DNA of 64,000 nt from Anaerocolumna aminovalerica (GTDB taxonomy: Bacteria; Bacillota; Clostridia; Lachnospirales; Lachnospiraceae): the NCBI RefSeq assembly GCF_900115365.1, contig NZ_FOWD01000008.1, forward strand, positions 1 to 64,000, read 5' to 3'. The position numbers were made by a program, and so were the translations under genes. Positions 34,822 through 61,468 of this stretch are shown here, one piece after another. Below the pieces are notes generated by a model, which was not told the DNA's origin, ran no database searches, and worked only from the letters and a program-made list of their open reading frames with translations. Position 1 is the first letter of the stretch, and every line of letters begins with the position of its first letter.

Positions 34822-35205
34822 TTATTCAGCCTTTACCGCAACAGCCTCAATTTCAAATAACCCGCCCATTGGAAGTGCAGCTACTTGCACACAGGAACGA
34901 GCAGGAGTTTCACCAGTAAAATATTCTCCATAGATTTTATTGATTTTAGCAAAATCCGCAATATCATTTAAGAATACGGTAGTCTTTACAACATTAGCTA
35001 ATGTTAAACCTGCTTCTTCTAAAATAGCCTTTAAGTTATTTAAAGCCTGTGTTGCTTGTGCTTCAACGCCTTCTGCCATTTTACCGGTAGCAGGGTCTAA
35101 TCCTAATTGACCGGAAGTATATAGGGTATCTCCTACCTGAACTGCATGAGAGTATGGTCCTACTGCTGCTGGTGCATTCTTTGCTGCTATAGTTGTTCTT
35201 TTCAT
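34822..35205 (-). CDS. ridA: RidA-family enamine/imine deaminase
   Basis: A 127-residue RidA (YjgF/UK114) protein. The typical blocks are PAAVGPYSHAVQVGDTLYTSGQLG (starting about residue 12), an Arg in GETPARSCVQVAALPMG (about 99-115, the conserved substrate Arg) and EIEAVA near the end. RidA hydrolyses reactive 2-aminoacrylate released by PLP dehydratases. Its stop/start junction with hyuA overlaps by 1 nt, so it is part of the purine operon. The likely job is to clear aminoacrylate made by the ammonia-lyase YgeX. Confidence 0.93.
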   Translation of the reverse strand: MKRTTIAAKNAPAAVGPYSHAVQVGDTLYTSGQLGLDPATGKMAEGVEAQATQALNNLKAILEEAGLTLANVVKTTVFLNDIADFAKINKIYGEYFTGETPARSCVQVAALPMGGLFEIEAVAVKAE

Positions 35206-36572
35206 TATAATGATCCTCTCTTTCTGGAAATGTATTTTCCTTGGTTTTCTTTTAATAATTTTCCGCCTTCAACAAGAAGCTGACCTCTTAAGAATACTTT
35301 CTCAGGTCTTCCTTTTATATTATACCCTTCGAAAGGTGCATAATCAACATTTTGCATTTGATTTGCTGCTGTTATTTTCCCTTGATATTCCGGATCCCAT
35401 ACTACAATATCAGCATCACTTCCGGCTTGTATGGTACCTTTTTTGGGATAAAGTCCATAAAGTTTAGCAGGATTTTCTGCCATTAACCTGCACATCTGAT
35501 TTAAAGATATTTTATCCTCTAACACTCCATAGGTATACACAACCGCTGCCCTGGTTTCAACACCTGGCATGCCGTTTGGAATCTTAGTATAATCATCTTT
35601 ACCCATTTCTTTTTGTTTCAGGGTAAAACTGCAATGATCTGTTGCAAGGGTATGGATTTTATCTTCTTTAAGGCCTTTCCATAAGCATTGACTATCTTCC
35701 TTGGTACGAAGGGGAGGAGAAATTACATACTTTGCACTTTCAAAGCCCGGCAGATAATATTTGCTTTCATCTAATAACAGATATTGAGGGCAGGTTTCAA
35801 TATAAACTTTCTGTCCCTGTTCTGCTGCTCTTTGAATAACTTCAAAACCTTCCTTAGTACTTAGATGTACTACTATAACAGGTACATCTACTAATTTTGC
35901 TATAGTTAAAAAACGATTTATAGCTTCTGCTTCAATACAAGAAGGTCTTGATACCGGATGGGCACTTGGTGAAAAATTACCTTCTTTTTTCTGTTCTGCA
36001 ATCAACTGGTCGATTAGTTCACCGTTTTCACAGTGTACACCCACAATACCGCCATATTCTTTGATTCTTTTTAATACTTCATATATTTCCCCATCTCTTA
36101 CTCTTGAAGAATAGGTCATATACAATTTAAAGGAAGTAATTCCTTCCTGGAACATATGAGGAACCTCTTCGCTGGTGTGTGGATTCCATTCAGATATTGC
36201 CATATGAAATCCATAATCACAGGAGGAACGATTGTCAGCTTTTTTATGCCAGTTATCCAGTCCTTCTTGTAACGTTTCTCCTTTATTCTGGGTAGCAAAG
36301 TCAATCACACAGGTGGTACCGCCTACTATTGCTGCCTTTGTACCTGTGTTAAAGTTATCTGCAGTTACGGTGCCGGACACCTCTAAATCAAAATGGGTAT
36401 GGGCATCAATAAAGCCTGGGAATACATACTTACCTGTTACGTCTATAACAGTAGCATCCTCTTCGGGAATCTTTTTTCCAACTTCTTTGATTATTTCATC
36501 TTCAATCAGCACATCTGCCTTCAAAGTATCTAATCCGGAGATTACCGTGCCGCCTTTTAATAAATACTTCAT
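35205..36572 (-). CDS. hyuA: Dihydropyrimidinase/hydantoinase HyuA-type
   Basis: A 455-residue cyclic amidohydrolase. Metal ligands: GFIDAHTHFDLE (His58, His60), the carbamylated Lys in SFKLYMTYS (about 149), His in VHCENGEL, VHLSTKEG, and Asp in LATDHCSF. The family opens hydantoin-like rings. In E. coli-type purine clusters (ygeW-X-Y-hyuA-yqeA) it works on a ring formed from urate breakdown. Same strand as ygfK and ssnA; it ends on ridA. A stem-loop leader lies just before the start. Confidence 0.93.
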   Translation of the reverse strand: MKYLLKGGTVISGLDTLKADVLIEDEIIKEVGKKIPEEDATVIDVTGKYVFPGFIDAHTHFDLEVSGTVTADNFNTGTKAAIVGGTTCVIDFATQNKGETLQEGLDNWHKKADNRSSCDYGFHMAISEWNPHTSEEVPHMFQEGITSFKLYMTYSSRVRDGEIYEVLKRIKEYGGIVGVHCENGELIDQLIAEQKKEGNFSPSAHPVSRPSCIEAEAINRFLTIAKLVDVPVIVVHLSTKEGFEVIQRAAEQGQKVYIETCPQYLLLDESKYYLPGFESAKYVISPPLRTKEDSQCLWKGLKEDKIHTLATDHCSFTLKQKEMGKDDYTKIPNGMPGVETRAAVVYTYGVLEDKISLNQMCRLMAENPAKLYGLYPKKGTIQAGSDADIVVWDPEYQGKITAANQMQNVDYAPFEGYNIKGRPEKVFLRGQLLVEGGKLLKENQGKYISRKRGSL

Positions 36573-36583
36573 CTTTATAACCA

Positions 36584-36635
36584 GCTCCTTTCAGAGTCTG
36601 GAGACTTTGTGCGTAGCACAAATCTCTGTTGAAAG
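36584..36635 (-). repeat. Stem-loop leader element before hyuA
   Basis: Minus-strand RNA: CTTTCA (36630-36635) can pair with TGAAAG (36588-36593), which continues into GGAGC. Inside is a hairpin TTTGTGC/GCACAAA (36606-36622). Same layout as the modA leader (22266-22318). Confidence 0.5.
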
Positions 36636-37110
36636 ATTTCTACTTTGAAAGAATTTCAACTTTTGAAAAAATTTCAACCTTGAAAGAATAAAAGTCTTTC
36701 AACCTTCCAGACATAATGCCGCTTGCGGCATCTCGAAAAATAGACGAAGAAGTTCGAAATGAGAATTCCAATGGATTCTCATTTTGGAGTTCTTCCAAGT
36801 GTGAAGAAGCTCTTCCTTCACACTTCTCTCCTTCCTGCACCTGTTTCTTGCGCATATTAAGTTTATACCAAGTATACCCCGGTATAAACTTTGTATGTGA
36901 AGATATTTTTTCTTCACATTTCCTGTGAAATGAATTAAGACTTACAAGAAATTCATTCTTTAGATGCCTTTGAGTCGGAGTAAAGGCTCCGACTCAATGA
37001 GGCAAGTTACTTAACCCATATTAAGTATAACTTGTAAATTTTAATTTGTTAATATGCAATCACAATTAAATTGCATACCTTTTTCATACACCGTTGAAAG
37101 GTTAACCTTT
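36596..37110. repeat. Dense array of about ten inverted repeats between hyuA and ygfK
   Basis: The 587-bp gap contains successive perfect or near-perfect hairpins: GTTGAAAGA/TCTTTCAAC (36628-36703) inside GTCTGG/CCAGAC (36596-36712); TGCCGC/GCGGCA (36717-36730); a long GAGAAT/ATTCTC stem (36770-36781 core); AAGTGTGAAG (36797-36824); AGTTTATACC/GGTATAAACT (36860-36890); ATGTGAAGA (36895-36919); AATGAATT (36929-36957); GAGTCGGAG/CTCCGACTC (36972-36995); AAGTTA (37004-37032); TATGCAAT (37053-37077); AAAGGTTAACCTTT (37096-37110). No gene is supported here. Confidence 0.75.
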
Positions 37111-37159
37111 ATTCCATCTTCCTTTACAACTAACAACTTCCTTATAATAATCACCAATC

Positions 37160-40147
37160 TTAGAACAGATAGCTGTAATCATTGTAAACAGCGGCGATGA
37201 ATTGTTCAATTCCGTCATATAGGCCGGTGTCCTTTAAGCCTTTTACAGTTGTTACTTTTCCGCCCAATCTAACTTGGAAAGTCAGACTGTCCTTATCTAC
37301 TAATACAAAACCTTCATTGGTGCTGTCCTCAAAATCAGCAGTATTATTAAATAAAGTAAATTTCTCTTTGTAAGGTGCACTATCATATGGACAGAAAGTT
37401 TCACAGTTGCCACATTCGTTACACATCTTATCAACATGAAGAATTTGCGCCAGTGCCATTCCAGGAACACGTATTGAGATATTGGCTCTGTTAGGACAGA
37501 CTTCCACGCAGTTTTCACATACGGAAGAACATCCTAAACAACGTCCTGAATCTTTGCCCTCTTCATCTGCTTTCTTAATAATACCTCTCTTAGCATATAA
37601 AGCTTCTATATCTAAGTCTGCTTCTATATCTTTTGCAACTTCTTTGCCAAGAATTCCTTCTGCTGCTTTTCTTGCATCACGAATTGCTTCTACTACTGTT
37701 GCCGGTCCATATAAGCCATCGCCTGCCACAAATACACCTTTTACATTAGTTTCAGCGGTTACAGGATCAACTACAGGATAACCTTTTTCATTTATAGTAA
37801 TATTGTTCTGTTTGTAGAAGTTAATATCTGCTTTCTCACCAACAGCTGCAATTACAGTATCAGCAGGAACTTTAACAATTTCATCTGTTTCTACCGGTTT
37901 ACGTCTGCCGGAAGCATCCGGATCACCAAGTATCATCTTGTGGCAAAGAAGCATTCCGTCTTCATGACGATATGGAGCAAGTAATTCTCTAAATTCAACT
38001 CCATCTTCTAAAGTAAGAATTAATTCTTCTTCGTCTGCCGGCATATAGCGTTTTGTTCTTCTATATACTAAAGATACTTTTTCAACACCCTCTGTTCTCT
38101 TAGCTGCTCTTGCAGTATCCATAGCCGTATTACCGCCACCGATAACAACTACATTTTTACCAAGATCTACATTGCCATCGGATTTCTTAAAGTCTTCTAA
38201 GAAAGCTAAAGCATTCATTGCTTCTCCTTCTTCCAACTTAAGCACTCCTGGCTTAGATGCACCAATTGCTAACACAATATTATCATATCCCATGTTCTTA
38301 ATTTCATCGATGGAAGTCACTTCAGAATTCACCTTAATTTCAACACCCATGATCTTTGCTAATTCAATATCATTTTGGATGGCTTCATCCGGAATTCTAA
38401 AGCCTGGGATAATGTGTCTGATGACACCGCCAAGTGTTTCTCTTTTCTCAAAGATAGTTACTTTCATACCGCTTCTTGCTAAGAAGAATGCAGTTGCTAA
38501 ACCAGCAGGTCCGCCACCGATAACAGCTGTCTTTCCTTCATAAGTTACAGCAGGTGCTTTTAATTCTTTCATAAGATCTTCAAAACCACCCTGTGCAGCT
38601 TCTAACTTCACGGAACGAATCTGAACGGATTCTTCATAGAAGTTACGAGTACACTTACTCATACAGTTATGAGCACAAATAGTACCTGTGATAAAAGGAA
38701 GTGGGTTCTTTTCTACAATAACCTTTAAAGCTTCCAGATATTTTCCTTCTCCGGCAAGTTTTAAATAGGAAGTAATGTCCTGATGTATTGGACATCCCTG
38801 CTTACAAGGAGCTTCAAAACAATCTAATAATGGAACTTGTCTTTCCATCTTACGGGATGGTAATGGTTTAATAGCTTTTGTATGGTTGGGATCTGTAATA
38901 GAATCCTTTTGTAATTTTTCAACTGCTTCGGGATTGATTCCGCTAAATGGCTTGTATTCTTCCTTGTCAAATATCTTAGCAATTTGAACCATTCTTTCGT
39001 ATCCGCCTGGTTTTAACACGGTAGTTGCTATAGTAATAGGCCAGATTCCTGACTCATAAATCTTATCGATATTGTGTACGTCTGCACCGCCGGAATAAGA
39101 TATTCTAAGCTTTCCGTCAAATTCTTTGGAAAGTTTTGCAGCCAGCGCAATGGATAAAGGATATAGAGAACGTCCTGACATGTACATTTCTTCACTTGGA
39201 AGTTCTCCTGCCTTAACATCTACAGGGAAAGTATTTGTAATTTTAACACCAAAGCTTAGTCCCTTTTCATCCGCTAAAGCCATTAATCTCTTTAACATAG
39301 GAATTGCATCTTCATATTGTAAATCATCTTTAAAGTGGAAATCACCAAATGCGATATAGTCATATCCCATATCATCCAGTGTTTTTCTTGCAAATTCATA
39401 ACCTAATAGGGTTGGATTACATTTAATAAAGGTATTTACATGTTTTTCGTTTATTAGATAGGAAGCAATCCGTTCAATCTCTTGTGGAGGACATCCATGA
39501 AGGGTTGATAAAGTAATGGAAGTACAGATGTTAGAAGTAATGGCATTCACATCTTCTTCCGTTATATTTTTAAATAAGTTAATATTATTTAATAAATATT
39601 CTTTGCATTCTTTAAAAATAGAAGTATCTTTTGCTTCTTTTAAACCTTCAATAAAGTCATCAATCTTCTTTGTTTTAATGCCTTCCAAATCATATCCTAC
39701 ACTCATGTTGAACATGAAGCCATCTGGAGAACCAAGTTTAAATTCTTTTGCAATTACTTTAATTGCAAACCATGCTTTTACATATTCGTCAAAAGCTTCC
39801 GGAACTCTAAGCTCTGTAGACCATTCACAGTTATAACACTCATCTTCTGCAGTAATACATGGTTTAGCAACAGGAAGATCTTCTCCGTCTAATACTTGTA
39901 CCGTTTTTAGTTCAAAGAAACGGCTTCCTGCGTAATAAGAAGCAACCAGGTTCTGTGCTAATTGTGTATGTGGTCCTGCTGCAGGGCCAAATGGAGTTTC
40001 TAATTTTTCATCAAATAAATCAAGATTACGTCCTTCTTTTGCAACATACGCTTTACGTACGCCAAAAACAGTATTTCTGTTTTTCTTTTCTTCTAAAATC
40101 CAATTCATTAATCTGTCAAATGGAATCGGTGTCATTCTATCGCTCAT
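37160..40147 (-). CDS. ygfK: YgfK, Fe-S flavoprotein reductase of the purine cluster
   Basis: A 995-residue multidomain protein. Residues 1-420 resemble a dihydroorotate/dihydropyrimidine-dehydrogenase barrel (TLHGCPPQEIERIASYLINE; GADVHNIDKIYESGIWPITI). From about 430 to 520 comes a GltD-like Fe-S domain (CKQGCPIHQDI, CAHNCMSKCTRN). Two dinucleotide-binding motifs follow (VIGGGPAGLATAFFLARSG; VVIGGGNTAMDTARAA), then two 4Fe-4S clusters at the C-terminus (CLGCSSVCENCVEVCPN; CNECGNCETFCPYD). Named a putative selenate reductase subunit in E. coli; work on gut purine clusters assigns it reduction of urate. Start ATG follows GAGG at about 8 nt. Confidence 0.93.
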   Translation of the reverse strand: MSDRMTPIPFDRLMNWILEEKKNRNTVFGVRKAYVAKEGRNLDLFDEKLETPFGPAAGPHTQLAQNLVASYYAGSRFFELKTVQVLDGEDLPVAKPCITAEDECYNCEWSTELRVPEAFDEYVKAWFAIKVIAKEFKLGSPDGFMFNMSVGYDLEGIKTKKIDDFIEGLKEAKDTSIFKECKEYLLNNINLFKNITEEDVNAITSNICTSITLSTLHGCPPQEIERIASYLINEKHVNTFIKCNPTLLGYEFARKTLDDMGYDYIAFGDFHFKDDLQYEDAIPMLKRLMALADEKGLSFGVKITNTFPVDVKAGELPSEEMYMSGRSLYPLSIALAAKLSKEFDGKLRISYSGGADVHNIDKIYESGIWPITIATTVLKPGGYERMVQIAKIFDKEEYKPFSGINPEAVEKLQKDSITDPNHTKAIKPLPSRKMERQVPLLDCFEAPCKQGCPIHQDITSYLKLAGEGKYLEALKVIVEKNPLPFITGTICAHNCMSKCTRNFYEESVQIRSVKLEAAQGGFEDLMKELKAPAVTYEGKTAVIGGGPAGLATAFFLARSGMKVTIFEKRETLGGVIRHIIPGFRIPDEAIQNDIELAKIMGVEIKVNSEVTSIDEIKNMGYDNIVLAIGASKPGVLKLEEGEAMNALAFLEDFKKSDGNVDLGKNVVVIGGGNTAMDTARAAKRTEGVEKVSLVYRRTKRYMPADEEELILTLEDGVEFRELLAPYRHEDGMLLCHKMILGDPDASGRRKPVETDEIVKVPADTVIAAVGEKADINFYKQNNITINEKGYPVVDPVTAETNVKGVFVAGDGLYGPATVVEAIRDARKAAEGILGKEVAKDIEADLDIEALYAKRGIIKKADEEGKDSGRCLGCSSVCENCVEVCPNRANISIRVPGMALAQILHVDKMCNECGNCETFCPYDSAPYKEKFTLFNNTADFEDSTNEGFVLVDKDSLTFQVRLGGKVTTVKGLKDTGLYDGIEQFIAAVYNDYSYLF

Positions 40148-40160
40148 AATAACCTCTATT

Positions 40161-40276: not shown

Positions 40277-41608
40277 TTAAGCATTTATGCTATTCCAAAG
40301 CTTTTCTGCCTCTGCTCTTACATTATTAATTGCCTTTTCTTCATCAATAACAGTTAATATTCTGTCTTTCATAACTACTTTACCGTTGATCACTGTTGTA
40401 GTTACATGGTTACCGTTCATTCCAAATAGAATATGGCTGTTGCAGTTTGCTGCTGACATTGGTGTTACTGGATTATAGTCAGCAATAATTACGTCTGCTG
40501 CCGCTCCTTCTTTTAAGATACCAAGCGGTTTCTTAAAGTAACGGTTTGCAATGATTGCATTGTTCTTAAATAACATGGTAGGAACTTCTCCCCATGCTGC
40601 GTTTGCATCACATAAATGATGTTTGTGAAGTATATTGGCTACTTTATAGGATTCAATCATGTCATGGGTATAACCGTCTGTACCAAGTCCTGTTAATACA
40701 CCGTGTTTCATAATCTCCATAGTAGGAGGGCATCCACATGCATTTCCCATATTGGACTCTGGGTTATGAACTACCATAGTATCGGTTTCTTTTAATACAT
40801 CCATTTCATGCTGATTTACATAGATACAATGTGCTGCTAATGTTTTAGGCCCTAGTACATTCAGGTCCATTAAACGATCAATTACCCTCTTGCCATATTT
40901 CTTAAGAGAATCATATAAATCTTCAATACCTTCTGCTACGTGTATATGATATCCTACTTCCGCAGGTTTGTTTGCTGCGCAAAGTTCAAGAGTTTCGTCT
41001 GATAAAGTAAAGGATGCATGAAGTCCCATCATACCTGCTATCATATCAGAATCATCTGCCAAAGCATGTTTGATAAATGCAGCATTCTCTGCTACTGCCT
41101 CTTTCATCTTATCTTTTCCATCACGGTCGGATACTTCATAACATAAGCAAGTTCTGACACCAAGTTCTTTTGCTGCGTCTTCAATTGCAAATAAACTGTC
41201 TTTAATGTTGCCAAAGCTGGCATGATGGTCAAATACAGTAGTAACACCACTCTTGATACAATCAATATAAGTTGCCATAGCACTTTGTTTTGTCTGTTCC
41301 AGTGTCAGGTGACGGTCAATGGTCCACCACATACCATCTAAGATATCTAAAAATCCATTGGGATTATATCCTTTAATGGAAAGTCCTCTAGCCATAGCGC
41401 TGTAAATATGCTCATGGATATTGATAAAACCAGGCATGATTACACCGCCTTTAGCGTCGATATACTCTGCATCAGGATATTCTTTTCTTAAATCTTCTGT
41501 CTTGCCTACTTTTTTAATTAATTCTTTCTCAATAAGTACCGCTCCATTTTCTAAAAATGGATTTGCATCATCTCTTGTGATGACCCTACCGTTTCCAATA
41601 ATAAGCAT
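40277..41608 (-). CDS. ssnA: SsnA, aminohydrolase of the purine cluster
   Basis: About 443 residues, amidohydrolase family like guanine/cytosine deaminases. Metal motifs: FINIHEHIYSAMARG (His-x-His, about 60-74), GYHIHVAEG, AHCIYV and the Asp in GLGTDGYTHD. It probably hydrolyses the reduced purine ring made by YgfK. The start at 41608 has AGGAGG 7 nt upstream; the earlier start at 41650 would include that site. First gene of the ssnA-ygfK-hyuA-ridA strand. Confidence 0.92.
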   Translation of the reverse strand: MLIIGNGRVITRDDANPFLENGAVLIEKELIKKVGKTEDLRKEYPDAEYIDAKGGVIMPGFINIHEHIYSAMARGLSIKGYNPNGFLDILDGMWWTIDRHLTLEQTKQSAMATYIDCIKSGVTTVFDHHASFGNIKDSLFAIEDAAKELGVRTCLCYEVSDRDGKDKMKEAVAENAAFIKHALADDSDMIAGMMGLHASFTLSDETLELCAANKPAEVGYHIHVAEGIEDLYDSLKKYGKRVIDRLMDLNVLGPKTLAAHCIYVNQHEMDVLKETDTMVVHNPESNMGNACGCPPTMEIMKHGVLTGLGTDGYTHDMIESYKVANILHKHHLCDANAAWGEVPTMLFKNNAIIANRYFKKPLGILKEGAAADVIIADYNPVTPMSAANCNSHILFGMNGNHVTTTVINGKVVMKDRILTVIDEEKAINNVRAEAEKLWNSINA

Positions 41609-41757: not shown

Positions 41758-41860
41758 TATATAGTTTTTTCTATAGGTATAGTTTATCATCTCTATTTAT
41801 GAATTGCAATAGAAAAATACAAATTTTTTTAGTTTACCTAAATTTTTTTGTAAAAAACTA

Positions 41861-41888
41861 TTGAAATATATTTTTTTTGTGATATTAT
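41861..41888 (+). promoter_or_regulatory. Promoter of the YheO regulator / ygeX operon
   Basis: TTGAAA (41861-41866), 16-bp spacer, TATTAT (41883-41888), about 43 bp before the regulator ATG. Confidence 0.6.
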
Positions 41889-41930: not shown

Positions 41931-42569
41931 ATGAACTATACACTGGACTATTTAACACAAATAGCACATGGCATCGCACAACAATTTGGCCAAAATTGTG
42001 AAGTTGTCATACATGATTTAGCTTCTATAGATTTGGAGAATACTGTAGTTTATATTGAGAACGGTCATGTTACAAAACGTAATATCGGTGATGGACCATC
42101 TCACGTGGTTTTAGAAGCATCACGTAAAGACACATCCCATTTAAAAGACCGTTATGGTTATTTGACACGTACCCAGGATGGTAGAATTTTAAAGTCATCA
42201 ACTATGTATATTCGTGGAGACGATAATAAAATCAGATACATATTCTCCATTAACTTTGACATAACCGCATTTTCAACTATTGATGGGGTTGTGAAATCAT
42301 TGATTTCCACAGAACCTGAAACTAAGGCTCCAGAGAGAATTACACAGAATGTAAATGACCTATTGGATGATCTAATAGAAGAATCTGTTGCTCTCATTGG
42401 AAAACCGGTTGCTCTTATGACAAAAGAGGAAAAAGTAACCGCCATTCAGTTTTTAAATGATGCAGGTGCTTTTCTGGTAACAAGATCTGGTGACAAAGTC
42501 TCCAAATACTTTGGAATCTCAAAGTACACACTATATAGTTATATAGATGTCAACAAAACAACAAAATAA
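41931..42569 (+). CDS. YheO-like PAS/HTH transcriptional regulator
   Basis: A 212-residue protein of the YheO type: an N-terminal PAS-like domain (CEVVIHDLASIDLENTVVYIENG, then MYIRGDDNKIRYIFSINFD) and a C-terminal HTH (FLVTRSGDKVSKYFGISKYTLYSYI, about 184-208). The ligand is unknown. It is first in the ygeX-ygeY-ygeW-yqeA strand and divergent from ssnA, so it most likely controls the purine genes. It takes the place of the sigma-54-type and XdhR-type regulators found in E. coli purine clusters. CGAAAGGA precedes the ATG. Confidence 0.88.
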   Translation: MNYTLDYLTQIAHGIAQQFGQNCEVVIHDLASIDLENTVVYIENGHVTKRNIGDGPSHVVLEASRKDTSHLKDRYGYLTRTQDGRILKSSTMYIRGDDNKIRYIFSINFDITAFSTIDGVVKSLISTEPETKAPERITQNVNDLLDDLIEESVALIGKPVALMTKEEKVTAIQFLNDAGAFLVTRSGDKVSKYFGISKYTLYSYIDVNKTTK

Positions 42570-50997: not shown

Positions 50998-51034
50998 ATA
51001 CAAAAACTTTTTGTGTCATACAAAATTTTTGTAT
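50998..51034. promoter_or_regulatory. Tandem palindromes upstream of purine permease 1
   Basis: A perfect 17-bp palindrome (51018-51034: ATACAAAA, T, TTTTGTAT) lies 19 bp centre-to-centre from a near-perfect one (50998-51016: ATACAAAAA, C, TTTTTGTGT). Two helical turns apart, they look like paired repressor sites. A further palindrome AATTTGTACAAATT lies at 51107-51120. The rest of 50763-51445 is AT-rich and has no gene. Confidence 0.55.
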
Positions 51035-52369: not shown

Positions 52370-52741
52370 TTATTTATTTTTTAGCATTTTATATTTACCT
52401 GCATCCATTTTTTCTTTAATTAATTCTTTTACCTTTGCCAACTCTTTATCACTGTAAAAAAAGCGCTCTAGTAAAATTAATACGCTATTACTTGATTCGT
52501 ATATAATAAACATCTTTTCTTTTTCTATAATTTTATAAATATCATCCCATTTATGAATAGAATCAAAAGATTCCGACTTTCGGTGTGTCGAATAAAAGAA
52601 GTTATTATCGAAAAAGAGTTGATTTTCCTTAGCAAAAGGTATATTATACCAATAGAAACTATATAAAGGGGCAAACTTATCGAAAGATAGGGACGCAAAG
52701 CCAAGGGTCTTCGTTTTTACAAACATGACAGCCGGTTGCAT
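52370..52741 (-). pseudogene. Truncated YcxB-like protein
   Basis: 123 residues matching only the C-terminal part of YcxB-like proteins: FDNNFFYSTHRKSESFDSIHKWDDIYKIIEKEKMFIIY, then LLERFFYSDKELAKVKELIKEKM (split motifs). The N-terminal membrane helices of the family are missing and no ribosome site precedes the first ATG. Probably a decayed gene. The 52742-52877 stretch upstream contains no gene. Confidence 0.45.
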
Positions 52742-52877
52742 CAGTAGTATATTGACTATGCCTTTTATTTTATAATAAAAGGCTTTCTTAATTTATTCAC
52801 CTTTCTTTTCATGTAAGCAACAATCCCACTTTATATAAAAAACAGAAAAATCATTTTATACTAAAAGGGAGAGCAAG

Positions 52878-54890
52878 ATGAAAAAAATAAAATTAGGATT
52901 CAAAAAAAGCATTAAAACAAGGCTTATTTTATCTTTTTCCGCTTTAGTTTTATTATCCTCTATTATTTTGAGCATAATATCATTTCAAGTAGCAAACTAT
53001 ATTATCACACAGGAGGCAAAGCAATCACTTACAACCATGTCTTATGATGCTGCCAGGTTAGAAGAAAGCCGACTGGAAACTCAAAGACGTTCTTTAAAAA
53101 CCATAGCAGAATTACAGGATATCAGAAGTATGGACTGGGAAAATCAACAACCTGTTCTGCGAAGTATGTTAGCCAATACGGATTTTATAGAAATGGGTGT
53201 TATCCAGCTAAATGGAACAGTCAATTATTCTAAAGGAAATTCTACACAGTTGGAAAAGTCCGATCCAACCTTGAAAGCAATTGAAGGGGAAGAAGAAGTA
53301 ATTCTCTTTCGTGCCGATCCGGGAACTGGTGAGTTGTCTCTCCTACAAGTAATACCTATTAAAAATGGCGGTAAAGTAGTAGGTGCATTATTAGGCCGCA
53401 GAGACGGAAAAGCTTTAACTAATATGGTAAATGACACCGGCTATGGGGAAGAGGGATATGGATTTGTTATAGACAGTAATGGAACTGTTATCGGTCATCC
53501 TGATGAAAATAAAGTATTCTCTCAATTTAATCCCATTGAAGAAGTGAAGAATAATAAGAATTTAACCTCTTTATCCCGATTGTTTGAAGAAATGATCAGT
53601 AAGAGAAATGGATTTTATGATTATACTTTTGAAGGTAAAAATCTATATGCAGGCTATTCTCCCATTGAAGGTACCGATTGGATTATTGCTATAACAGCTA
53701 CTGAAAACGAATTGTTTTCTGCATTGCCTATGCTGGAGAGGATTATTATAATTGTACTTGCAGTTATCTTACTGATAAGCATCCTTGTTACTTATCTATT
53801 AGGCAATTCAATTACAAAGCCAATTATAAAAGGCGTTGAGTATTCTAAAAGAATTGCAAACTTAGATTTATCAGAAGATGTAGATAAAAAGGATTTAAAG
53901 AAAAAGGATGAAATAGGTGAACTTGCAAATGCACTGCAAAGTATCCTTCTTGAACTGCGTAAGATTATCAGGGAAATCAATGATTCCTCCAAACAGTTAG
54001 CCGCTTCTTCCCAGGAACTTACCGCTACTTCTGAGCAAACGGCAAATGCCGCAGAAGAAGTAGCAAAAACAGTAGAAGAAATCGCTAACGAAGCTTCCCA
54101 ACAAGCACGTTCTACTGAATTAGGCACTACCAAGGCAATTGAATTAGGTGAAACCATTAAAAAGGTTTACGGATATATAAATGAGGTAAATCAATCCAAA
54201 GACAAGGTTAACGATGTAGTCAGTAACGGAATTAATGAAATTGATTCATTAAGCAAAATAACCACCGAAAGTACCGGAGCTGTTAATGAAATCTATCAGG
54301 TAATTATAAAAACCAACGATAGTTCCAACCAAATTGGTGAAGCCAGTAAAGTAATTGAATCCATCGCCTCACAAACAAATCTCTTATCTTTAAATGCAGC
54401 TATAGAGGCAGCAAGAGCTGGTGAAGCAGGAAGAGGATTTGCGGTTGTTGCGGAAGAAATCAGAAAACTTGCTGAACAATCAGAAGCTTCTACTAAAATT
54501 ATAAATACTATAGTGGCTGAATTACAGCAAAATACTAACGATGCTGTAAAAACCATGGAAAGGGTATCCAATATATCTGAGGAGCAGGCCAGAAGCGTAA
54601 ATAACAGTAAAGATAAATACCAACAAATTGCAGAAGCTATGGAAATCACCAATGCATCACTTTCTCAATTAAACCTTTCCGGAGATGAAATGGATAAGAT
54701 GCGAATGAGTATTCTGGATGTATTACAAAATCTTTCTGCCATCGCTGAAGAAAATGCCGCCGCCACTGAACAAGCATCTGCAACTACTGAAGAGCAAACC
54801 GCTTCTGTAGAAGAAATTGCAAACTCCAGCAACAAATTGTCTGAATTAGCTATAAGATTACAAGGGGCAGTTGCTCAATTTAAAGTGTAA
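52878..54890 (+). CDS. Methyl-accepting chemotaxis protein with Cache sensor
   Basis: A 670-residue chemoreceptor. Transmembrane helix 1 lies at about 16-42, an extracellular dCache-type sensor at about 43-280 ([38 protein letters not shown]), helix 2 at about 283-306, a HAMP domain at about 308-365, and a long methyl-accepting coiled coil with the conserved tip [19 protein letters not shown] (about 497-515). GGGAG lies before the ATG. The ligand may be small carboxylates or amines (Cache), but nothing in the sequence decides. It sits inside the purine region, so purine sensing is only a guess. Confidence 0.93.
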
Positions 54891-55107
54891 CTTTTGGGTT
54901 AAGCTAAGCAATATGACCAAAACTGTTCAAATCTATAAAGATATAATAACATTCAATTTCACATAGACCAATGTTATCCAATGCTAAAATATATACATAT
55001 ATGCCAAATAACCTTGAAAACTTAAGGTTTTCCGTGTAGAATAGTATTATGTTACCCTTTCGTATATGAAAGCTTTTAGAAAAAGTATAGTAAAGAGGTA
55101 TGGGTAT

Positions 55108-56037
55108 ATGAATTATAAAAAGCTAAAAGAAACAGGCGGGATTATTGTTGCCGCAGGTAAAACATCAAAGAAAAGTAAATCCGATCCACTTCTTAAAATA
55201 GGATCTATAACGGTAATAAAAAGAATTGTATTGACTTTTCAAAGAGCCGGAATCTCCCCTATTGTTGTGGTTACAGGATGTGCCGCAGAAGATATTGAAT
55301 ACGATTTATCCGACTATGGAGTTATATTCCTTCGAAATGAAGAATATGAACACTCTCAGATGTTTGATTCTGCAAAAATCGGATTTGAGTATTTAAAAGA
55401 AAAATGCGACCAGATTGTATTTACACCGGTCAATATTCCTATGTTTACACCAGATACTATTGTTAAAATGATTACTTCCGGTGAACCCCTTATTGCGCCT
55501 TCTTATCAGGGAAGAGCCGGGCACCCCCTCTTAATAGATAATAAATTACTACCCTCCATTCTATCCTATAATGGGCCCCAGGGACTACGGGGAGCCGTTC
55601 AAAGCCTGGAAGTAAAACGAAAGCTTATGGAAGTAGAGGATGAAGGTATTATTCATGACACTGATGACATGGATCGGCTGGATGCATTACTTAAAGAACA
55701 TAATGAGCACATTTACCATCCTTTCCTAAGGATCAGCATTGAAAAAGAATCCATGTTCTTTAACTCCAGAACAAAATTGCTATTGATGCTGATTAAAGAA
55801 ACCCATTCTGTACGAAATGCTTGTAAGCACATTGCTCTCTCATATAGCAAAGCCTGGTCCATGCTAAATAAATTAGAAGAAGAGCTTGGATATGCCGTTG
55901 TTGAAAGAATACACGGAGGAAGTAACGGTGGAAATACCTATTTAACAAAAGAAGGTCTGGAGTTTCTGGAAAAGTATCTGGAATTTGAACATAATGTACG
56001 AAAGTTTGCAGAAGCGGAGTTTAAAAGGTTGTTCTAA
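55108..56037 (+). CDS. MobA-like nucleotidyltransferase fused to a ModE-type HTH (paralogue 2)
   Basis: About 309 residues, the same architecture as 22451-23383. The N-terminal transferase has a weaker nucleotide signature: VAAGKTSKKSKSDPLLKIG instead of the Arg-containing loop of copy 1, but keeps FTPVNIPMF and GRAGHPLLID. C-terminal ModE/LysR-type HTH: LMLIKETHSVRNACKHIALSYSKAW, wing GGSNGGNTYLTKEG. It stands just upstream of the xdh genes and could regulate them. The ATG at 55108 has GAGG 9 nt upstream; a frame start at 55066 has none. Confidence 0.82.
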   Translation: MNYKKLKETGGIIVAAGKTSKKSKSDPLLKIGSITVIKRIVLTFQRAGISPIVVVTGCAAEDIEYDLSDYGVIFLRNEEYEHSQMFDSAKIGFEYLKEKCDQIVFTPVNIPMFTPDTIVKMITSGEPLIAPSYQGRAGHPLLIDNKLLPSILSYNGPQGLRGAVQSLEVKRKLMEVEDEGIIHDTDDMDRLDALLKEHNEHIYHPFLRISIEKESMFFNSRTKLLLMLIKETHSVRNACKHIALSYSKAWSMLNKLEEELGYAVVERIHGGSNGGNTYLTKEGLEFLEKYLEFEHNVRKFAEAEFKRLF

Positions 56038-56293: not shown

Positions 56294-58408
56294 ATGGAAG
56301 CTATAAGTAAGTCTGTAAAAAAAAGGGATCACGACGCCAAAATTAGCGGTCAAGCACTATATGTGGATGATATAGTGATGGAAGACATGCTTTATGGCAA
56401 AATGTTGCGTTCCACCAAAGCAAAAGCAAGAATCAAAAACATTATTCTTCCTGAAATTCCTGCCGGATATTGTATTGTTGATAAGAATGATGTTCCGGGA
56501 GAGAACAAGATACATGTTGTTGAGGAAGATATGCCTGTATTTCCCGAAGATACCGTAGAATATGTAGGAGATCCTATTCTTATGGTAGTGGGACCGGATA
56601 AAAAAGGAATTGAAAGAATTCTGTCTGAAATCGTTGTAGATTACGAAGAATTAGAACCTGTATTAGATGTTCGTAAGTCAGATGTTGCTTTCTTTCATTT
56701 CAATTATGCCAAAGGTGATGTGGACAAAGCCTTTGAAGAAGCAGATCGTGTTATAACTGAAACCATTGAAACTGGTCATCAAGAGCAAGCATATCTGGAA
56801 ACTAATGGTTTAATTGCTTATCCAGAGGAAGGACGTATGACTGTTCGCGGTTCCATGCAATGTCCATACTATGTATTTGGTGCAGTAGCAAAAGCATTAG
56901 GCTACGATAGAAAGGATATACGTATTGTTCAAGATGTAACTGGTGGCGGTTTTGGTGGTAAAGAAGATTTTCCGTCCATACTTGCCTGTCAGCTTGCTGT
57001 AGCTGCAAAAAAAGCAAACAAACCTGTTAAATATGTATTTGACAGAAGAGAAGACATGGAATTTACTTCAAAACGTCATCCTTCTATTTGTACCTATAAA
57101 GTAGCTGTGAAGGACGGTAAAGTTACCGGTATGGATATTGATGTAATCTATGATAGTGGTGCCTATACAACCCTATCCAGCGTAGTTTTACAACGTGGTA
57201 TCATTGGAGCAAGTGGTGTCTATAATATTGAGAATTTACGAGTAACTGGTGATGCTAAGAAAACCAACACCCTTCCTAATGGAGCAATGCGTGGTTTTGG
57301 CGCTCCTCAAACCTTCTTTGCTGTAGAAATGATAATGATTCATATTGCAAAGCAGTTAGGCGTTGATTCCCTTAAATTCAAGGAACAGCACATGGTAAAG
57401 CAAGGGGATGCTACCTCTACAAGTGGTAAATTCCATTTCCATGTTCCACTTCCAGAAATGATTGAGAGAGCTGATCAATTATCTGATTTTAGAAAGAAAC
57501 GTGAACTTTATAAAAATCAAACTGGAAGATATCGTAAAGGAATTGGTATATCTCTGGTTTATCACGGATGTGGTTTTACCGGCAGCGGTGAAAGAGACTA
57601 CATCAAAGCTATTGCAAAGCTAAAGAAAAATGCAGATGATACTGTTGAGATTCTTATCAGTATTACAGATATGGGTCAGGGTGCAAAAACTACATTTAGT
57701 AAAATAGTAGCTGATACTTTAGGTATTTCGTTAGATAAGGTAATCTATTCAAACCCAGATACAGACAGAGTACCAGATTCTGGTCCTACTGTTGCCAGCC
57801 GTTCTTTAATGGTAGTAGGACAATTAATAAAACGTGCAGCTGAGAAATTAAAAGAACAATGGAAATCCGGAGAAGAGCAATTAATTGAGGAACATTATGT
57901 TCATCCTGATTTCTTAATTCCATTTGATATTAAGATATTCCACGGAGATGCTTATCCTACTTACTCTTGGTGTGTTAATGTAATTGAACTGGAAGTAGAT
58001 ACTATTACTGCTACTACTCAGGTAATTGGTGCTTGGGGTGTATATGATGTAGGTACCCCTCTTGATTTAAACATTTTACATGGTCAAATGCAGGGTGGTT
58101 TCTTACAATCCATTGGATACGCTTCTATGGAACAATGTAACTATAATGAAAAAGGAATCATTCGTAACAATAGTTTCAGCGATTATATTATTCCTACTGC
58201 AATGGATATACCGAACCTTGTTACAGATATTATTGAAGTTCCTTATGTGGAAGGACCTTATGGTGCAAAAGGTGCCGGAGAATTACCATGCGTTGGTCCT
58301 GCTCCTGCCTACATTGATGCTTTAGAGAACGCACTTGAAAATAACATTTATCACATTCCTTATACACAAGAGGATGCCATGAAATATTTACAGGAGGTGG
58401 AAAAGTAA
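56294..58408 (+). CDS. Xanthine dehydrogenase-type hydroxylase, molybdenum subunit
   Basis: A 704-residue molybdopterin-binding large subunit of the xanthine dehydrogenase family. Cofactor motifs: QDVTGGGFGGKEDFPSILA (about 216-234), NGAMRGFGAPQTFF (about 328-341), DMGQGAKTTFSKIVAD (about 458-473) and the catalytic Glu in PYGAKGAGELPCVGPAPAY near the C-terminus. It is shorter than typical 760-residue subunits, as in bacterial three-subunit types. It likely oxidises xanthine or hypoxanthine to urate with labile selenium at the Mo site. AGGAGG lies 6 nt before the ATG; its stop overlaps the next start (TAATG). Confidence 0.93.
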   Translation: MEAISKSVKKRDHDAKISGQALYVDDIVMEDMLYGKMLRSTKAKARIKNIILPEIPAGYCIVDKNDVPGENKIHVVEEDMPVFPEDTVEYVGDPILMVVGPDKKGIERILSEIVVDYEELEPVLDVRKSDVAFFHFNYAKGDVDKAFEEADRVITETIETGHQEQAYLETNGLIAYPEEGRMTVRGSMQCPYYVFGAVAKALGYDRKDIRIVQDVTGGGFGGKEDFPSILACQLAVAAKKANKPVKYVFDRREDMEFTSKRHPSICTYKVAVKDGKVTGMDIDVIYDSGAYTTLSSVVLQRGIIGASGVYNIENLRVTGDAKKTNTLPNGAMRGFGAPQTFFAVEMIMIHIAKQLGVDSLKFKEQHMVKQGDATSTSGKFHFHVPLPEMIERADQLSDFRKKRELYKNQTGRYRKGIGISLVYHGCGFTGSGERDYIKAIAKLKKNADDTVEILISITDMGQGAKTTFSKIVADTLGISLDKVIYSNPDTDRVPDSGPTVASRSLMVVGQLIKRAAEKLKEQWKSGEEQLIEEHYVHPDFLIPFDIKIFHGDAYPTYSWCVNVIELEVDTITATTQVIGAWGVYDVGTPLDLNILHGQMQGGFLQSIGYASMEQCNYNEKGIIRNNSFSDYIIPTAMDIPNLVTDIIEVPYVEGPYGAKGAGELPCVGPAPAYIDALENALENNIYHIPYTQEDAMKYLQEVEK

Positions 58409-58875
58409 TGGTTAAATTTATTCTTAATGGCGAAGAAGTTACAAGCAATGCAAACCAAAATGAACGCTTATTGGATGTAATCAGAAATGAATTCCGCCTT
58501 ACAGGTGCAAAATGTGGTTGTAAAGAAGGCGAATGCGGCGCCTGTTCCGTAATCCTTGATGGAAAACTGGTTAACTCCTGTATGGTAGCTATGGGAAGCA
58601 TTGAAGGCAGTACTGTTATGACAATTGAAGGATACAGTCATACAGACCGTTTCTCAGTTCTTGAAAAAGCATATGCTTCTGTTAGTGCTGTACAATGCGG
58701 TTTCTGTATCCCTGGCATGATGCTTGCTTCTGAAAGTATACTTGCAGAGAATCCAAATCCTACCGAAGAAGATATTCGCAGAGGAATCTCTGGAAATCTT
58801 TGCAGATGCACCGGTTATAATGCTATTGTAGAGGCAATCGGCATTGCAGCAAAGGAGGGTAAAGGACTATGGTAA
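58408..58875 (+). CDS. Hydroxylase 2Fe-2S subunit
   Basis: A 155-residue CoxS/XdhC-type iron-sulfur subunit with two [2Fe-2S] clusters. Plant-type ferredoxin cysteines: Cys38, Cys43, Cys46 and Cys58 (CGCKEGECGACSVIL... NSC). The second set is Cys97, Cys100, Cys132 and Cys134 (CGFCIPGM; LCRCTGY). It passes electrons from the molybdenum subunit to the FAD subunit. Starts in the last base of the large-subunit gene and overlaps the next gene by 7 nt, so all three are translationally coupled. Confidence 0.96.
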   Translation: MVKFILNGEEVTSNANQNERLLDVIRNEFRLTGAKCGCKEGECGACSVILDGKLVNSCMVAMGSIEGSTVMTIEGYSHTDRFSVLEKAYASVSAVQCGFCIPGMMLASESILAENPNPTEEDIRRGISGNLCRCTGYNAIVEAIGIAAKEGKGLW

Positions 58876-59687
58876 AAAGTTATTTTGCAACATCCTTAAA
58901 AGAAGCTCTGGAAATACGAGGTAGAGAATCAGTAACTCCATATGCAGGCGGTACCGATTTAATGATTGAAGCAGATGATAATGCTTCCTACCTGTTTCTG
59001 AACAAGATACCGGAATTAAAACAAATCACAGCAGATGATGAATATATACGCATTGGTGCTGCCAGTACATTTACAGAAGTTTATCATAGCGAACTGATTC
59101 CTCAGATTTTAAAAGACGCTGTAATTGAAATTGCTGCTCCTGCTATCCGTAACTTAGGAACTGTTGGCGGTAATATCTGTAACGGCTCTCCAAAAGGAGA
59201 TAGTGTATTAATCTTCTTTGCAACCGACTCTAAACTACGTCTTGCAAGCAGTAAAGGAGAACGTATTCTTCCAATTAAGGAATTTTATTTAGGAAGAAAA
59301 AAACTGGCTATACAAGATGATGAACTTTTGGTAGAAATACTTATGAGTAAAACAGGACTTGATAATTATTATTACAAGAAAATCGGAGCAAGAAACGCAT
59401 TAGCGATCTCCAGAGTATCTTTTGCAGGGATACTTGACATAAAAGACGGTAAGATTATGAACTGTATGACTGCATTCGGTGCTGTAAGTGATGTAGTTAT
59501 CAGAAGACCGGAGCTTGACGGAATATTAATTGGTAAAACTATCGAAGAAGCAAAGGCTGTGAAGGAAAAATATTTGGCAGCATTTGACGAAGCAATTGTT
59601 CCTATTCGAGGCAGAGTTTCTGCTGAATATAGAAAATCTGTATGTATGAACTTACTAAAAGATTTTCTTGAAAGTAATGGAATTTAA
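58869..59687 (+). CDS. Hydroxylase FAD subunit
   Basis: A 272-residue FAD-binding subunit (CoxM/XdhB-type). FAD motifs: TPYAGGTDLMIEADD (about 18-32) and RNLGTVGGNICNGSPKGDS (about 95-113); the C-terminal CO_deh_flav domain includes the KKIGARNALAISRVSFAG run. It hands electrons to NAD or another acceptor. Third gene of the operon and directly followed by the 59784-59822 terminator. Confidence 0.95.
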   Translation: MVKSYFATSLKEALEIRGRESVTPYAGGTDLMIEADDNASYLFLNKIPELKQITADDEYIRIGAASTFTEVYHSELIPQILKDAVIEIAAPAIRNLGTVGGNICNGSPKGDSVLIFFATDSKLRLASSKGERILPIKEFYLGRKKLAIQDDELLVEILMSKTGLDNYYYKKIGARNALAISRVSFAGILDIKDGKIMNCMTAFGAVSDVVIRRPELDGILIGKTIEEAKAVKEKYLAAFDEAIVPIRGRVSAEYRKSVCMNLLKDFLESNGI

Positions 59688-59822: not shown

Positions 59823-59941
59823 TAATTTGAGTCCTGCAAGAGTACTAAGTAATGGCAGGAAATAGGTATGTCTTTTTTGGATTTTTAGTACCTATTTTTA
59901 CCACATTTTACTATATTTTGTTAGTTGTATTCTTAGACATA

Positions 59942-59950
59942 TGGTATAAT
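59942..59950 (+). promoter_or_regulatory. Extended -10 promoter of purine permease 2
   Basis: TGGTATAAT (TG at 59942-59943, TATAAT at 59945-59950), without a good -35. It lies about 165 bp before the permease ATG; the 59823-60115 leader holds no gene and no riboswitch core that I recognise. Confidence 0.5.
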
Positions 59951-60115
59951 GCATAAACTCTCAATACAAAAGTTCAGCAGTAATCAGGAACACTGATTCA
60001 TTCTTTTAAAGAATAAAGGAATGAAAATTAATGAAATTAAATAGTTCTAGATGTAATTGCTGCTTTTAATATAAATAACTAGGTTAGCTAAAATTTTAGA
60101 GAGGTGAAAACACAC

Positions 60116-61468
60116 ATGGGAAAGAATGAGTCAACAGAAGCAAAAACAATGTCAGGACTAATTTATCAAGTATCTGACAAACCTAAAATCCTTACGGCTA
60201 TTATATTGGGATTTCAAAATATTTTAACCGCATTTAGCGGTATTGTAGCAGTTCCATTAATTATTGCAGGAATTGCAGGACTTAATGTAGTGGATACAGC
60301 TTATTTGGTATCTGCTGCCCTGCTTGCTTCAGGTATAGCATCTATTATTCAATCAAGAGGTTTTGGTCCTAAGAAATTTAGAGTCGGTGTTGGCTTGCCA
60401 ACTGTTATGGGAACTGACTTTGGTTTCGTACCTCCTGCTAATACCATTATCAACACAATGGGGGGTGGAATGGCAGGTTACTTCGGAGCATCTATTTTAG
60501 GAGCAATCTTTGAGTTTGTTCTTAGCTTTTTTGTAAAACCTTTAATGAAAATTTTCACACCAGTTGTAACAGGTACAGTTATCGCACTTATGGGTATGTC
60601 TATGATGCCAGTTGCATTCGACTGGATTGGCGGTGGTGTTGGTAATCCAAATTACGGTGATCCAATGTACATACTGGTAGCCGCAATTGTATTCCTTGTT
60701 ATTCTGCTGTTAAACCGTTATGCAAAAGGTATGTTAAATACAGCTGCCGTTATGATTGGTATTGTGGTCGGATATATTATTAGTATTCCATTGGGGTTAA
60801 TTGACTTTTCACAAATTGCTTCCGCTGATTGGATACAGTTACCTGAAATCGCACGCTTTGGAATTGATTTTAATCCAAAATTCGTTGTTCCATTTATTGC
60901 AGGTTATTTAGTTACAGTAATTGAAACTGTTGGTGTTATGGAAACCCTTGGAGAAGTTACAGGTTCACACTTGACCAGTGATGATATTGTTGCAGGTGTA
61001 AGAGGTGACGCAGTAAGTTCCGCCCTTTGTCCTTTTGTAGGATCCGGCCCTGCACAAACATTCAGCCAAAACGTAGGATTAATTCCTTTAACCAAATGTG
61101 CATCACAGTTTGTTGCTATCGTAGCTGGTGTAATTCTTATATTAATGAGTCTTTTCCCTAAACTTTCAACTATCGTATCCATTATGCCATCCTGTGTACT
61201 TGGTGGTGCAGGTATCTTAATGTTTGGTACAGTTGCAATTTCCGGTATTAAGACTCTATCAAAAGTTAAATTTACAAACCGTAATCTATTAATCATTGCA
61301 AGTTCTTTAGGAATTGGCTTAGGTGTAACTTTCAGACCTGATGTTGTTGCTCAACTTCCTGGAATCTTAAGTAGTTTATTTGGTTCAGGAATCTCAGCAG
61401 GTACCATCGTTGCATTAATATTAAGCGTAATCCTGAAAGATGATCCAAATGAAGCTGAAATAGATTAA
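60116..61468 (+). CDS. NCS2-family purine permease 2
   Basis: About 450 residues with 12-14 hydrophobic segments. It keeps the acidic TM8 motif VIETVGVMETLGEVTG and the TM10 motif QTFSQNVGLIPLTK, so unlike permease 1 it has the usual Glu. It probably imports xanthine or urate; the sequence cannot choose. The ATG at 60116 is preferred, since GAGAGGTG lies about 10 nt upstream; a GTG at 60104 is inside that site. It lies behind the xdh operon and its own promoter. Confidence 0.9.
   Translation: MGKNESTEAKTMSGLIYQVSDKPKILTAIILGFQNILTAFSGIVAVPLIIAGIAGLNVVDTAYLVSAALLASGIASIIQSRGFGPKKFRVGVGLPTVMGTDFGFVPPANTIINTMGGGMAGYFGASILGAIFEFVLSFFVKPLMKIFTPVVTGTVIALMGMSMMPVAFDWIGGGVGNPNYGDPMYILVAAIVFLVILLLNRYAKGMLNTAAVMIGIVVGYIISIPLGLIDFSQIASADWIQLPEIARFGIDFNPKFVVPFIAGYLVTVIETVGVMETLGEVTGSHLTSDDIVAGVRGDAVSSALCPFVGSGPAQTFSQNVGLIPLTKCASQFVAIVAGVILILMSLFPKLSTIVSIMPSCVLGGAGILMFGTVAISGIKTLSKVKFTNRNLLIIASSLGIGLGVTFRPDVVAQLPGILSSLFGSGISAGTIVALILSVILKDDPNEAEID

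Follow-up and report, generated by a model that had tools for sequence, protein, structure and literature searches.

The locus considered here, from Anaerocolumna aminovalerica, raises the question of whether a reductive (oxygen-free) pathway of urate degradation is encoded complete at one site, with its own regulator and transport, as was suggested in an earlier note made from the sequence alone. It lies at 34.8-61.5 kb of a 64,000-nucleotide stretch (positions 1 to 64,000 of contig NZ_FOWD01000008.1, here termed C45), hereafter called the window, of a 4.62-Mb draft genome that comprises 83 contigs and is 99.86% complete. Gut anaerobes that break urate down reductively influence the urate levels of the host, and the activity is a target of probiotic engineering; how it is regulated in the various gut bacteria is described in PMC12507026 as poorly understood. 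The pathway genes themselves are known. What is new is a regulator with PAS_6 and HTH_22 domains, which the earlier note did not name, and its operator, a tandem palindrome between two divergent promoters. This protein is proposed, from sequence comparisons, to be the dedicated activator of two facing operons.

As set out by Li et al. 2025 (PMC12507026) and in the commentary by Percudani (PMC12990295), the chemistry of the reductive route is established in E. coli and clostridia. XdhD-YgfM (in E. coli) or XdhAC (in C. sporogenes) first reduces urate to 2,8-dioxopurine (yanthine), after which YgfK, SsnA, HyuA, YgeW, YgeY and YgeX lead to pyruvate. Genes of the window were identified by NCBIfam and Pfam profile searches with curated cut-offs. 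The core cluster (34.8-47.4 kb) and the regulator gene within it are as follows.

34822-35205, minus strand: RidA-type enamine/imine deaminase (TIGR00004, 173.7 bits; cut-off 106)
35205-36572, minus strand: HyuA, hydantoinase/dihydropyrimidinase (TIGR02033, 600 bits; cut-off 393; 38% identical to E. coli HyuA)
37160-40147, minus strand: YgfK, yanthine reductase of the published pathway (TIGR03315, 1457 bits; cut-off 835; 43% identical to E. coli YgfK)
40277-41608, minus strand: SsnA aminohydrolase (NF005540, 696 bits; cut-off 444)
41931-42569, plus strand: PAS_6/HTH_22 transcriptional regulator, proposed activator of the cluster (PF08348, 122.7 bits, then PF13309, 69.5 bits; cut-offs 27 and 29.6)
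42584-43789, plus strand: YgeX, diaminopropionate ammonia-lyase (TIGR03528, 634 bits; cut-off 532)
43802-45106, plus strand: YgeY, M20-type hydrolase (TIGR03526, 682 bits; cut-off 321; 65% identical to E. coli YgeY)
45146-46339, plus strand: YgeW, knotted carbamoyltransferase (TIGR03316, 801 bits; cut-off 500; 67% identical to E. coli YgeW)
46506-47444, plus strand: YqeA/ArcC carbamate kinase (TIGR00746, 387 bits; cut-off 358; 66% identical to E. coli YqeA)

It is apparent that all eight enzymes exceed the curated NCBIfam cut-offs, and that they lie where the earlier note had placed them, with ridA-hyuA-ygfK-ssnA on the minus strand and, on the plus strand past a gap of about 320 bp from ssnA, the regulator gene followed by ygeX-ygeY-ygeW-yqeA. 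They include the marker pair of the pathway, YgfK (or UacX) and SsnA, and all four of HyuA, YgeW (or UacY), YgeY and YgeX. The core enzymes are 33-67% identical to their E. coli counterparts (RidA had none in the comparison set), and SsnA is 95% identical to that of an uncultured Anaerocolumna (locus L014). The start of ssnA is the ATG at 41608, which follows a Shine-Dalgarno-like AGGAGG; the listed TTG start at 41650 is over-long. Judged by these matches, the gene set downstream of yanthine is that of the known reductive uric-acid pathway, and the urate/purine degradation system described in the earlier note corresponds to the published one.

The cluster was compared with 80 named ssnA loci of other genomes, each taken with up to 10 kb on either side (several stretches end at contig ends) and annotated with proteins of the window, of E. 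coli and of the A. aminovalerica genome. The neighbours of ssnA included ygfK in all 80 loci, ygeY in 64, ygeX in 63, ygeW in 60, yqeA in 55 and hyuA in 40. Because the same genes recur across these loci, their gathering is not a matter of chance. The 587-bp gap between hyuA and ygfK in the window (36573-37159) contains several inverted repeats, with arms of up to 26 nt, and no gene was found in it. A second YgfK-like protein of 574 aa is encoded on contig C43 (L094:10920-12644), beside amino-acid transporter and alcohol dehydrogenase genes; its match to the profile covers positions 1-447 and 879-1012, the NAD(P)H/FAD module in the centre being absent, as in the description of C. difficile UacX.

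The usual starter enzyme of the pathway is encoded elsewhere. An XdhAC-type gene, which specifies a fused iron-sulfur-molybdenum (FeS-Mo) protein matching TIGR03311, is present in 66 of the 80 ssnA stretches. Among 150 genomes of the family, ssnA was found in 29, XdhAC in 29 and both in 28 (28 of the 30 with either; Fisher p 4e-28), and the two genes are at most 15 kb apart in 20 of the 28 genomes with both. At the window locus there is no urate reductase of XdhD or XdhAC type, the sole hydroxylase there belonging to a different clade. The TIGR03311 gene of this genome is situated on another contig (C37:48832-51447; 1272.9 bits, cut-off 830.45). Its distance to the contig ends puts it no closer than about 80 kb to the cluster, even were C37 and C45 neighbours, provided that C45 continues past the window. 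The genome has six Mo-hydroxylases, and the C37 gene alone reaches the TIGR03311 cut-off among those scanned. Since this gene is on C37, the window locus is not complete, and the earlier claim of completeness in a single locus must be given up. Co-location is not completeness, and proximity of XdhAC to ssnA is usual, but not required, for membership of the pathway.

The hydroxylase that does lie at the locus has three subunits. Its composition of Mo, 2Fe-2S and FAD subunits, and the presence of two NCS2 permeases within the same 27 kb, were confirmed by profile matches.

49401-50834, minus strand: NCS2 purine permease 1 (PF00860, 278.5 bits; TIGR00801 over cut-off)
56294-58408, plus strand: Mo subunit of a short three-subunit xanthine-dehydrogenase-type enzyme (assigned from best PDB match, pocket residues and separate clade, see below)
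58408-58875, plus strand: 2Fe-2S subunit of the same enzyme (PF01799, 91.5 bits)
58869-59687, plus strand: FAD subunit of the same enzyme (PF00941, 125 bits)
60104-61468, plus strand: NCS2 permease 2, nearest E. coli UacT (TIGR03173, 420 bits; cut-off 414; 38% identity and 274 bits to UacT)

With its Mo, 2Fe-2S and FAD subunits all present, this enzyme is best matched in the PDB, through the 704-aa Mo subunit, by bovine xanthine dehydrogenase (XDH)/oxidase (271 bits, vs 196 for the Rhodobacter enzyme). None of the NCBIfam XDH models reaches its cut-off on this subunit (best, 374.7 of 780 bits), and TIGR03311, a model that covers the fused protein, gives 317.8 of 830.45 bits. Six positions of the bovine pocket, which we take to be Q767, E802, R880, F914, F1009 and E1261, were located on an alignment with the bovine structure. 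All six residues are kept in the window protein (Q189, E224, R301, F335, F428 and E663) and in eight of eight Brachyspira homologues. All 52 XdhAC proteins keep five, with a gap at the F1009 position, and E802 and R880 are lacking in the four other non-XdhAC hydroxylases of this genome. The pocket is thus shared with the bovine enzyme, from which the window enzyme differs in consisting of three separate subunits. In a maximum-likelihood tree of 45 sequences, which carries a long-branch warning, the window protein and its homologues from genomes G050, G084 and Brachyspira group together in a single clade (100/100), separate from those of XdhAC (100/100) and XdhA (100/100). Each of the 11 members of this clade comes from a locus or genome with a separate XdhAC-type gene; therefore, the window enzyme is no substitute for XdhAC. 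The G050 homologue adjoins XdhAC-hyuA-ygfK-ssnA, and that of G084 is situated away from ssnA, its neighbours being a guanine-deaminase-like gene and two genes for purine permeases. The window XDH probably makes urate from xanthine. A point against this assignment is the absence of E802 and R880 from E. coli XdhA, a protein whose annotation is putative xanthine dehydrogenase, so that the pocket test is not required for such an annotation.

Other assignments of the first reductive step must be weighed against XdhAC. Were the window enzyme itself the urate reductase, as an NADH-linked analogue of E. coli XdhD-YgfM, the locus would be complete. An enzyme of this type is found close to the cluster in the window, in G050 and at eight Brachyspira loci, an FAD subunit is present as in YgfM, and its clade groups with XdhAC (92/85 support, on long branches). 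The separate XdhAC-type gene in all 11 clade members, the bovine match with its six pocket residues and the setting of the G084 homologue nevertheless make this quite unlikely. Another hydroxylase of the genome might also serve, the C37 XdhAC then being an unrelated selenium-dependent hydroxylase. The candidate would be C37b, a three-subunit enzyme resembling XdhD that is encoded where contig C37 ends (L098). Its Mo subunit is the only one of this genome nearer to E. coli XdhD (434 bits) than to XdhA (370 bits), and its FAD subunit is closest, by a narrow margin, to YgfM (63.2 bits vs 62.4 for XdhB). Like C37b, a further hydroxylase (C50, XdhA over the cut-off) weighs against a simple assignment to XdhAC, as does genus relative G024, which has no ssnA and retains an XdhAC-type gene (80% identical, beside selD, yqeB and yqeC), so that XdhAC may also serve other ends. 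The lack of a convincing operator at the C37 XdhAC, described below, points the same way. However, C37b does not reach the cut-off of either the XdhD model (494 of 1102 bits) or the XdhA model (613 of 780 bits), and the joint occurrence and proximity of XdhAC and ssnA across the family argue against a role for C37b that we regard as improbable. We infer that yanthine is most likely made here by the XdhAC-type enzyme of C37. As a separate observation, in both genus members the gene for a molybdenum-hydroxylase Mo subunit is divided, near residue 175, into two open reading frames (L097:8693-11026 on contig C40, and L132:1530-3880), which may reflect either natural fission or parallel decay.

The earlier suggestion of an own regulator is borne out by a conserved regulator-operator pair. 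The PAS_6/HTH_22 gene occurs in 68 of the 80 related stretches, facing ssnA in 67, and a PAS fold is seen in a predicted structure model of the protein. The elements of the intervening gap in the window are as follows.

41781-41789, minus strand: extended -10 element TGATAAACT of the putative ssnA-side promoter, 36 nt from the nearer palindrome centre
41817-41834, no strand assigned: palindrome 1 of the tandem operator (matrix score 10.7)
41836-41853, no strand assigned: palindrome 2 of the tandem operator (matrix score 14.0; 19 bp from palindrome 1)
41880-41888, plus strand: extended -10 element TGATATTAT of the putative regulator/ygeX-side promoter, 35 nt from the nearer palindrome centre

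The palindrome matrix was learned from 55 non-redundant ssnA/regulator gaps, including that of the window, and 55 of the 68 scored regions are therefore the training set; held-out loci and distal XdhAC genes provide the fairer tests. The nulls, made by Markov-1 or dinucleotide shuffling, preserve composition and do not preserve relatedness. The consensus, ATCTAAAAATTTTTAGAT, has 15.4 bits in the 55 gaps vs no more than 8.6 in 40 shuffled sets. A score of at least 13 was reached in 63 of the 68 gaps, compared with 3 of 123 control intergenic regions of the same loci, these three being upstream of ssnA (L047 and L048) and of an NCS2 permease (L018). A second copy is found 18-21 bp away in 42 of the 68 gaps (null, 1.8%). 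On the regulator side, 46 of 55 scorable regions have an extended -10 element (TGnTAnnnT) whose start is 34-36 nt from the nearer copy, and on the ssnA side 38 of 49 have one at 35-37 nt; the maximum in one 3-nt class over 200 random placements was 8. On both sides the site centres fall at about -50 and -69 from the inferred starts, and for this reason activation is suggested.

Held-out loci give a similar picture. The regulator gene is not adjacent in 12 of the 80 loci, of which 9 retain the site at ssnA (Fisher p 1.5e-9 vs controls; one, L082, has only about 70 nt upstream of ssnA), and the regulator is encoded elsewhere in 11 of these 12 genomes. In G018 and G050, ssnA is present and neither regulator nor site was found; G161 lacks the regulator and has too little DNA upstream of ssnA for scoring, and G024 has neither regulator nor ssnA. 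No site was found upstream of four distinct distant PAS_6 homologues (29-43% identity), all of which scored below 8. Detached regulator genes carry a site at their own promoter in G133, G151, G152 and G088, with a borderline case in G025. Among nine distal or paralogous XdhAC upstream regions (this genome and G024 excluded), scores of at least 13 were obtained in four (G025, G136a, G088 and G133) and not in five (G136b, G018, G051, G113 and G038b). The tandem site has the right promoter spacing in G025 and G136a only (35 and 37 nt), that of G088 and G133 being different; the G133 site is shared with a divergent regulator gene, and G018 is without the regulator.

Several observations weigh against the pairing of regulator and operator. 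The control regions have an AT content of 60% vs 70% in the test regions. The regulator is present without a site at ssnA in G025 (4.3), G155 (7.7) and G159 (4.4), and with a borderline site in G088 (11.5) and G033 (11.0); seven detached regulator genes have no site at their own promoter. In Enterococcus faecalis the regulator faces ssnA, and the highest score given by the matrix is no better than chance, being reached in 48 of 500 simulations. Upstream of the C37 XdhAC the best site is weak (9.0), and its distance to the promoter (66 nt) is not the right one; this gene is consequently not shown to be in the regulon. It could be supposed, then, that the palindrome is bound by another factor, or is an AT-rich promoter element, the PAS protein being a passenger; its core is indeed AT-rich, and the genomes with a regulator and no site would be expected. 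We nonetheless hold this to be unlikely, given a palindromic site that recurs in tandem with constant helical spacing, keeps a constant distance to two promoters, and is absent both at ssnA in the two genomes without regulator (G018 and G050) and before the distant homologues. That the protein is a repressor released by a purine, rather than an activator, deserves more weight, while still being doubtful. A protein related to it in domain content, DauR, is a repressor, and the direction of control is not readable from sequence alone. A repressor, however, more usually overlaps the promoter, and here neither core promoter includes a site centre: the centres are some 50 and 69 nt upstream of each inferred start, and the -10 elements are of the extended type. 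Activation by the PAS_6/HTH_22 protein remains the preferred reading.

The reach of this switch within the window appears to be limited. With the 18-mer matrix, four window sites in all score at least 10.5: the ssnA/regulator gap contains three of them, and the fourth, at 22468, is intragenic. Upstream of other cluster genes in the compared loci the site is nearly absent (proximal XdhAC, 0/66; ygfK, 1/81; ygeW, 0/60). One further element was found by permease 1.

50998-51034 (50998-51016 and 51018-51034), no strand assigned: tandem operator-like element upstream of permease 1 (16.3 with a 19-mer and 14.2 with a 17-mer matrix; 10.4 with the original 18-mer)

That sequence had already been seen when the 17- and 19-mer matrices were made, and the operator-promoter spacing is not reproduced at this element. 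The idea of an own transport system is upheld in part: permease 2 is closest to E. coli UacT, and the link of permease 1 to the switch depends on matrices adjusted afterwards. These results do not show that the whole 27 kb is one regulon.

Comparison with known systems sets the locus apart chiefly in its regulation. The E. coli cluster (XdhD-YgfM, YgfK, SsnA, HyuA, YgeW, YqeA, YgeY and YgeX; PMC12507026) has all of its post-yanthine enzymes matched at the window locus, although the XdhD-YgfM pair is missing there and the gene order differs. In E. coli the sigma-54 activator gene ygeV is beside ygeW, whereas the window has the PAS_6/HTH_22 regulator instead. In clostridia, according to PMC6615313, the sigma-54 activator DioR is predicted to control ygeW-ygfK-ssnA-ygeY, pbuX and yqeB, the function of the regulon being listed as 'Unknown'. 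The DioR genes of Clostridium and Clostridioides overlap with the window in ygeW-ygfK-ssnA-ygeY, pbuX, yqeB, yqeC and xdh-related genes, but regulator class and promoter type, as given there, are unlike those of the window. No sigma-54 enhancer-binding activator was found among the 20 open reading frames scanned at 34.8-61.5 kb, elsewhere not being searched. A further parallel is in E. faecalis (plasmid copy L189; EF_2563-EF_2582 in PMC2276186), where a regulator gene 62% identical to that of the window faces ssnA, and where ygfK, hydA, dpaL, ygeY, ygeW, arcC, ridA and an NCS2 permease are also found. Unlike the window, that locus includes a selenium-dependent xdh gene, and the core of its palindrome, CTAAAAAATATTTTTTAG, is longer, its score with the present matrix not exceeding chance. 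The copy at L189:8803-15621, with the same regulator gene facing ssnA, is on a 139-kb plasmid of a pig isolate, and the pathway can therefore be plasmid-borne. A literature search, including a term search of PMC12507026, returned no report of a PAS_6/HTH_22 regulator or of such an operator for this pathway; its coverage was incomplete, and novelty is to that extent unproven.

Taken together, the data suggest the following scheme, which as a whole we consider probable. A permease would import a purine, and the three-subunit enzyme at 56-60 kb would probably oxidise xanthine to urate. Urate would be reduced to yanthine by a reductase encoded elsewhere, most likely the selenium-dependent XdhAC-type enzyme of C37. 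Yanthine would in turn be reduced by YgfK, the rings opened by SsnA and HyuA, and the ureido groups removed by YgeW and YgeY; carbamate kinase would yield ATP from carbamoyl phosphate, and YgeX would yield pyruvate and ammonia. YqeB, YqeC, SelD and MocA-like proteins may supply labile selenium and molybdenum cofactor. The PAS_6/HTH_22 protein most likely binds the two adjacent 18-bp palindromes midway between the divergent extended -10 promoters and activates both, the inducer presumably being a purine or a pathway intermediate.

A wider hypothesis, which we favour somewhat, is that in Lachnospiraceae and Brachyspira one dedicated activator of this type runs oxygen-free urate degradation through a tandem palindrome placed exactly between two divergent extended -10 promoters. 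Regulator and switch would have travelled with the pathway between phyla, the switch would precede pathway genes now outside the cluster, XdhAC in certain genomes and a purine permease in other ones, and the system would replace the sigma-54 regulators YgeV and DioR of enterobacteria and clostridia, with a urate or yanthine signal as its ligand. If this is true, a single conserved regulator with a defined operator makes induction directly testable in many species, and the operator is a sequence signature by which detached pathway genes can be found.

The block at 18-32 kb was described in the earlier note as one of selenium and molybdenum genes, and profile matches agree.

18348-23981, minus strand: XdhC-like factor, modC-modB-modA, MocA-ModE fusion and MocA-like protein (profile searches)
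24058-28662: labile-selenium cofactor genes yedF, yqeB, yqeC and a LysR gene (all minus strand) and selD (plus strand) (TIGR03527, TIGR03309, TIGR03172, NF040786 and TIGR00476, all over cut-off)

The LysR regulator is of the Sec-associated type, and a NifS-like protein is also encoded within the block. This association has been known since 2008, when Haft and Self tabulated selD, yqeB and yqeC together with the pathway genes for E. coli, E. faecalis and C. difficile (PMC2276186), and deletion of yqeB in C. difficile is reported to impair growth on xanthine and urate (PMC11448449). With the selenium-dependent molybdenum hydroxylase trait (orphan SelD, YqeB, YqeC and YgfJ, as outlined in PMC2276186 and PMC11448449), the window shares selD, yqeB, yqeC, yedF and MocA-like genes near a molybdenum hydroxylase; the TIGR03311 enzyme itself is on another contig in this genome. 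No tRNA-Sec scored over the cut-off, the best match being called tRNA-Ser. A MocA-like nucleotidyltransferase domain is fused to a ModE-type helix-turn-helix in two proteins (22451-23383, minus strand, and 55066-56037, plus strand), and matches of 113-119 aa in some relatives suggest that this helix-turn-helix stands alone there. The fusions are possible molybdenum-responsive regulator-enzymes.

Further genes lie in and beside the 27 kb. A PAD_porph/agmatine-deiminase-like protein (32363-33601, minus strand) faces a MerR-family regulator (33702-34565, plus strand) beside ridA, and neither is found in the 80 related stretches. Inside the 27 kb, and unrelated to the pathway, are a SigV-like ECF sigma factor with an RsiV-like anti-sigma factor (47635-49082, minus strand; in 1 of the 80 stretches, that of the nearest relative), a DsbA-like protein (51434-52162), a YcxB-like protein (52370-52741) and a dCache_1 chemoreceptor (52878-54890). 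These genes, and a riboswitch, are not conserved with the cluster in the 80 ssnA stretches. The chemoreceptor matches the purine receptor McpH weakly (4.4e-5); in a comparison by eye, made without structural alignment, with the dCache_1PU motif (Y121, R129, W140, F167, D/N169; PMC11245519), the tryptophan was not seen in the expected stretch. Upstream of its gene is the riboswitch, a c-di-GMP-I-GGC aptamer (52661-52744, plus strand; 61.5 bits, cut-off 59), of which three more matches, all sub-threshold, occur in the genome.

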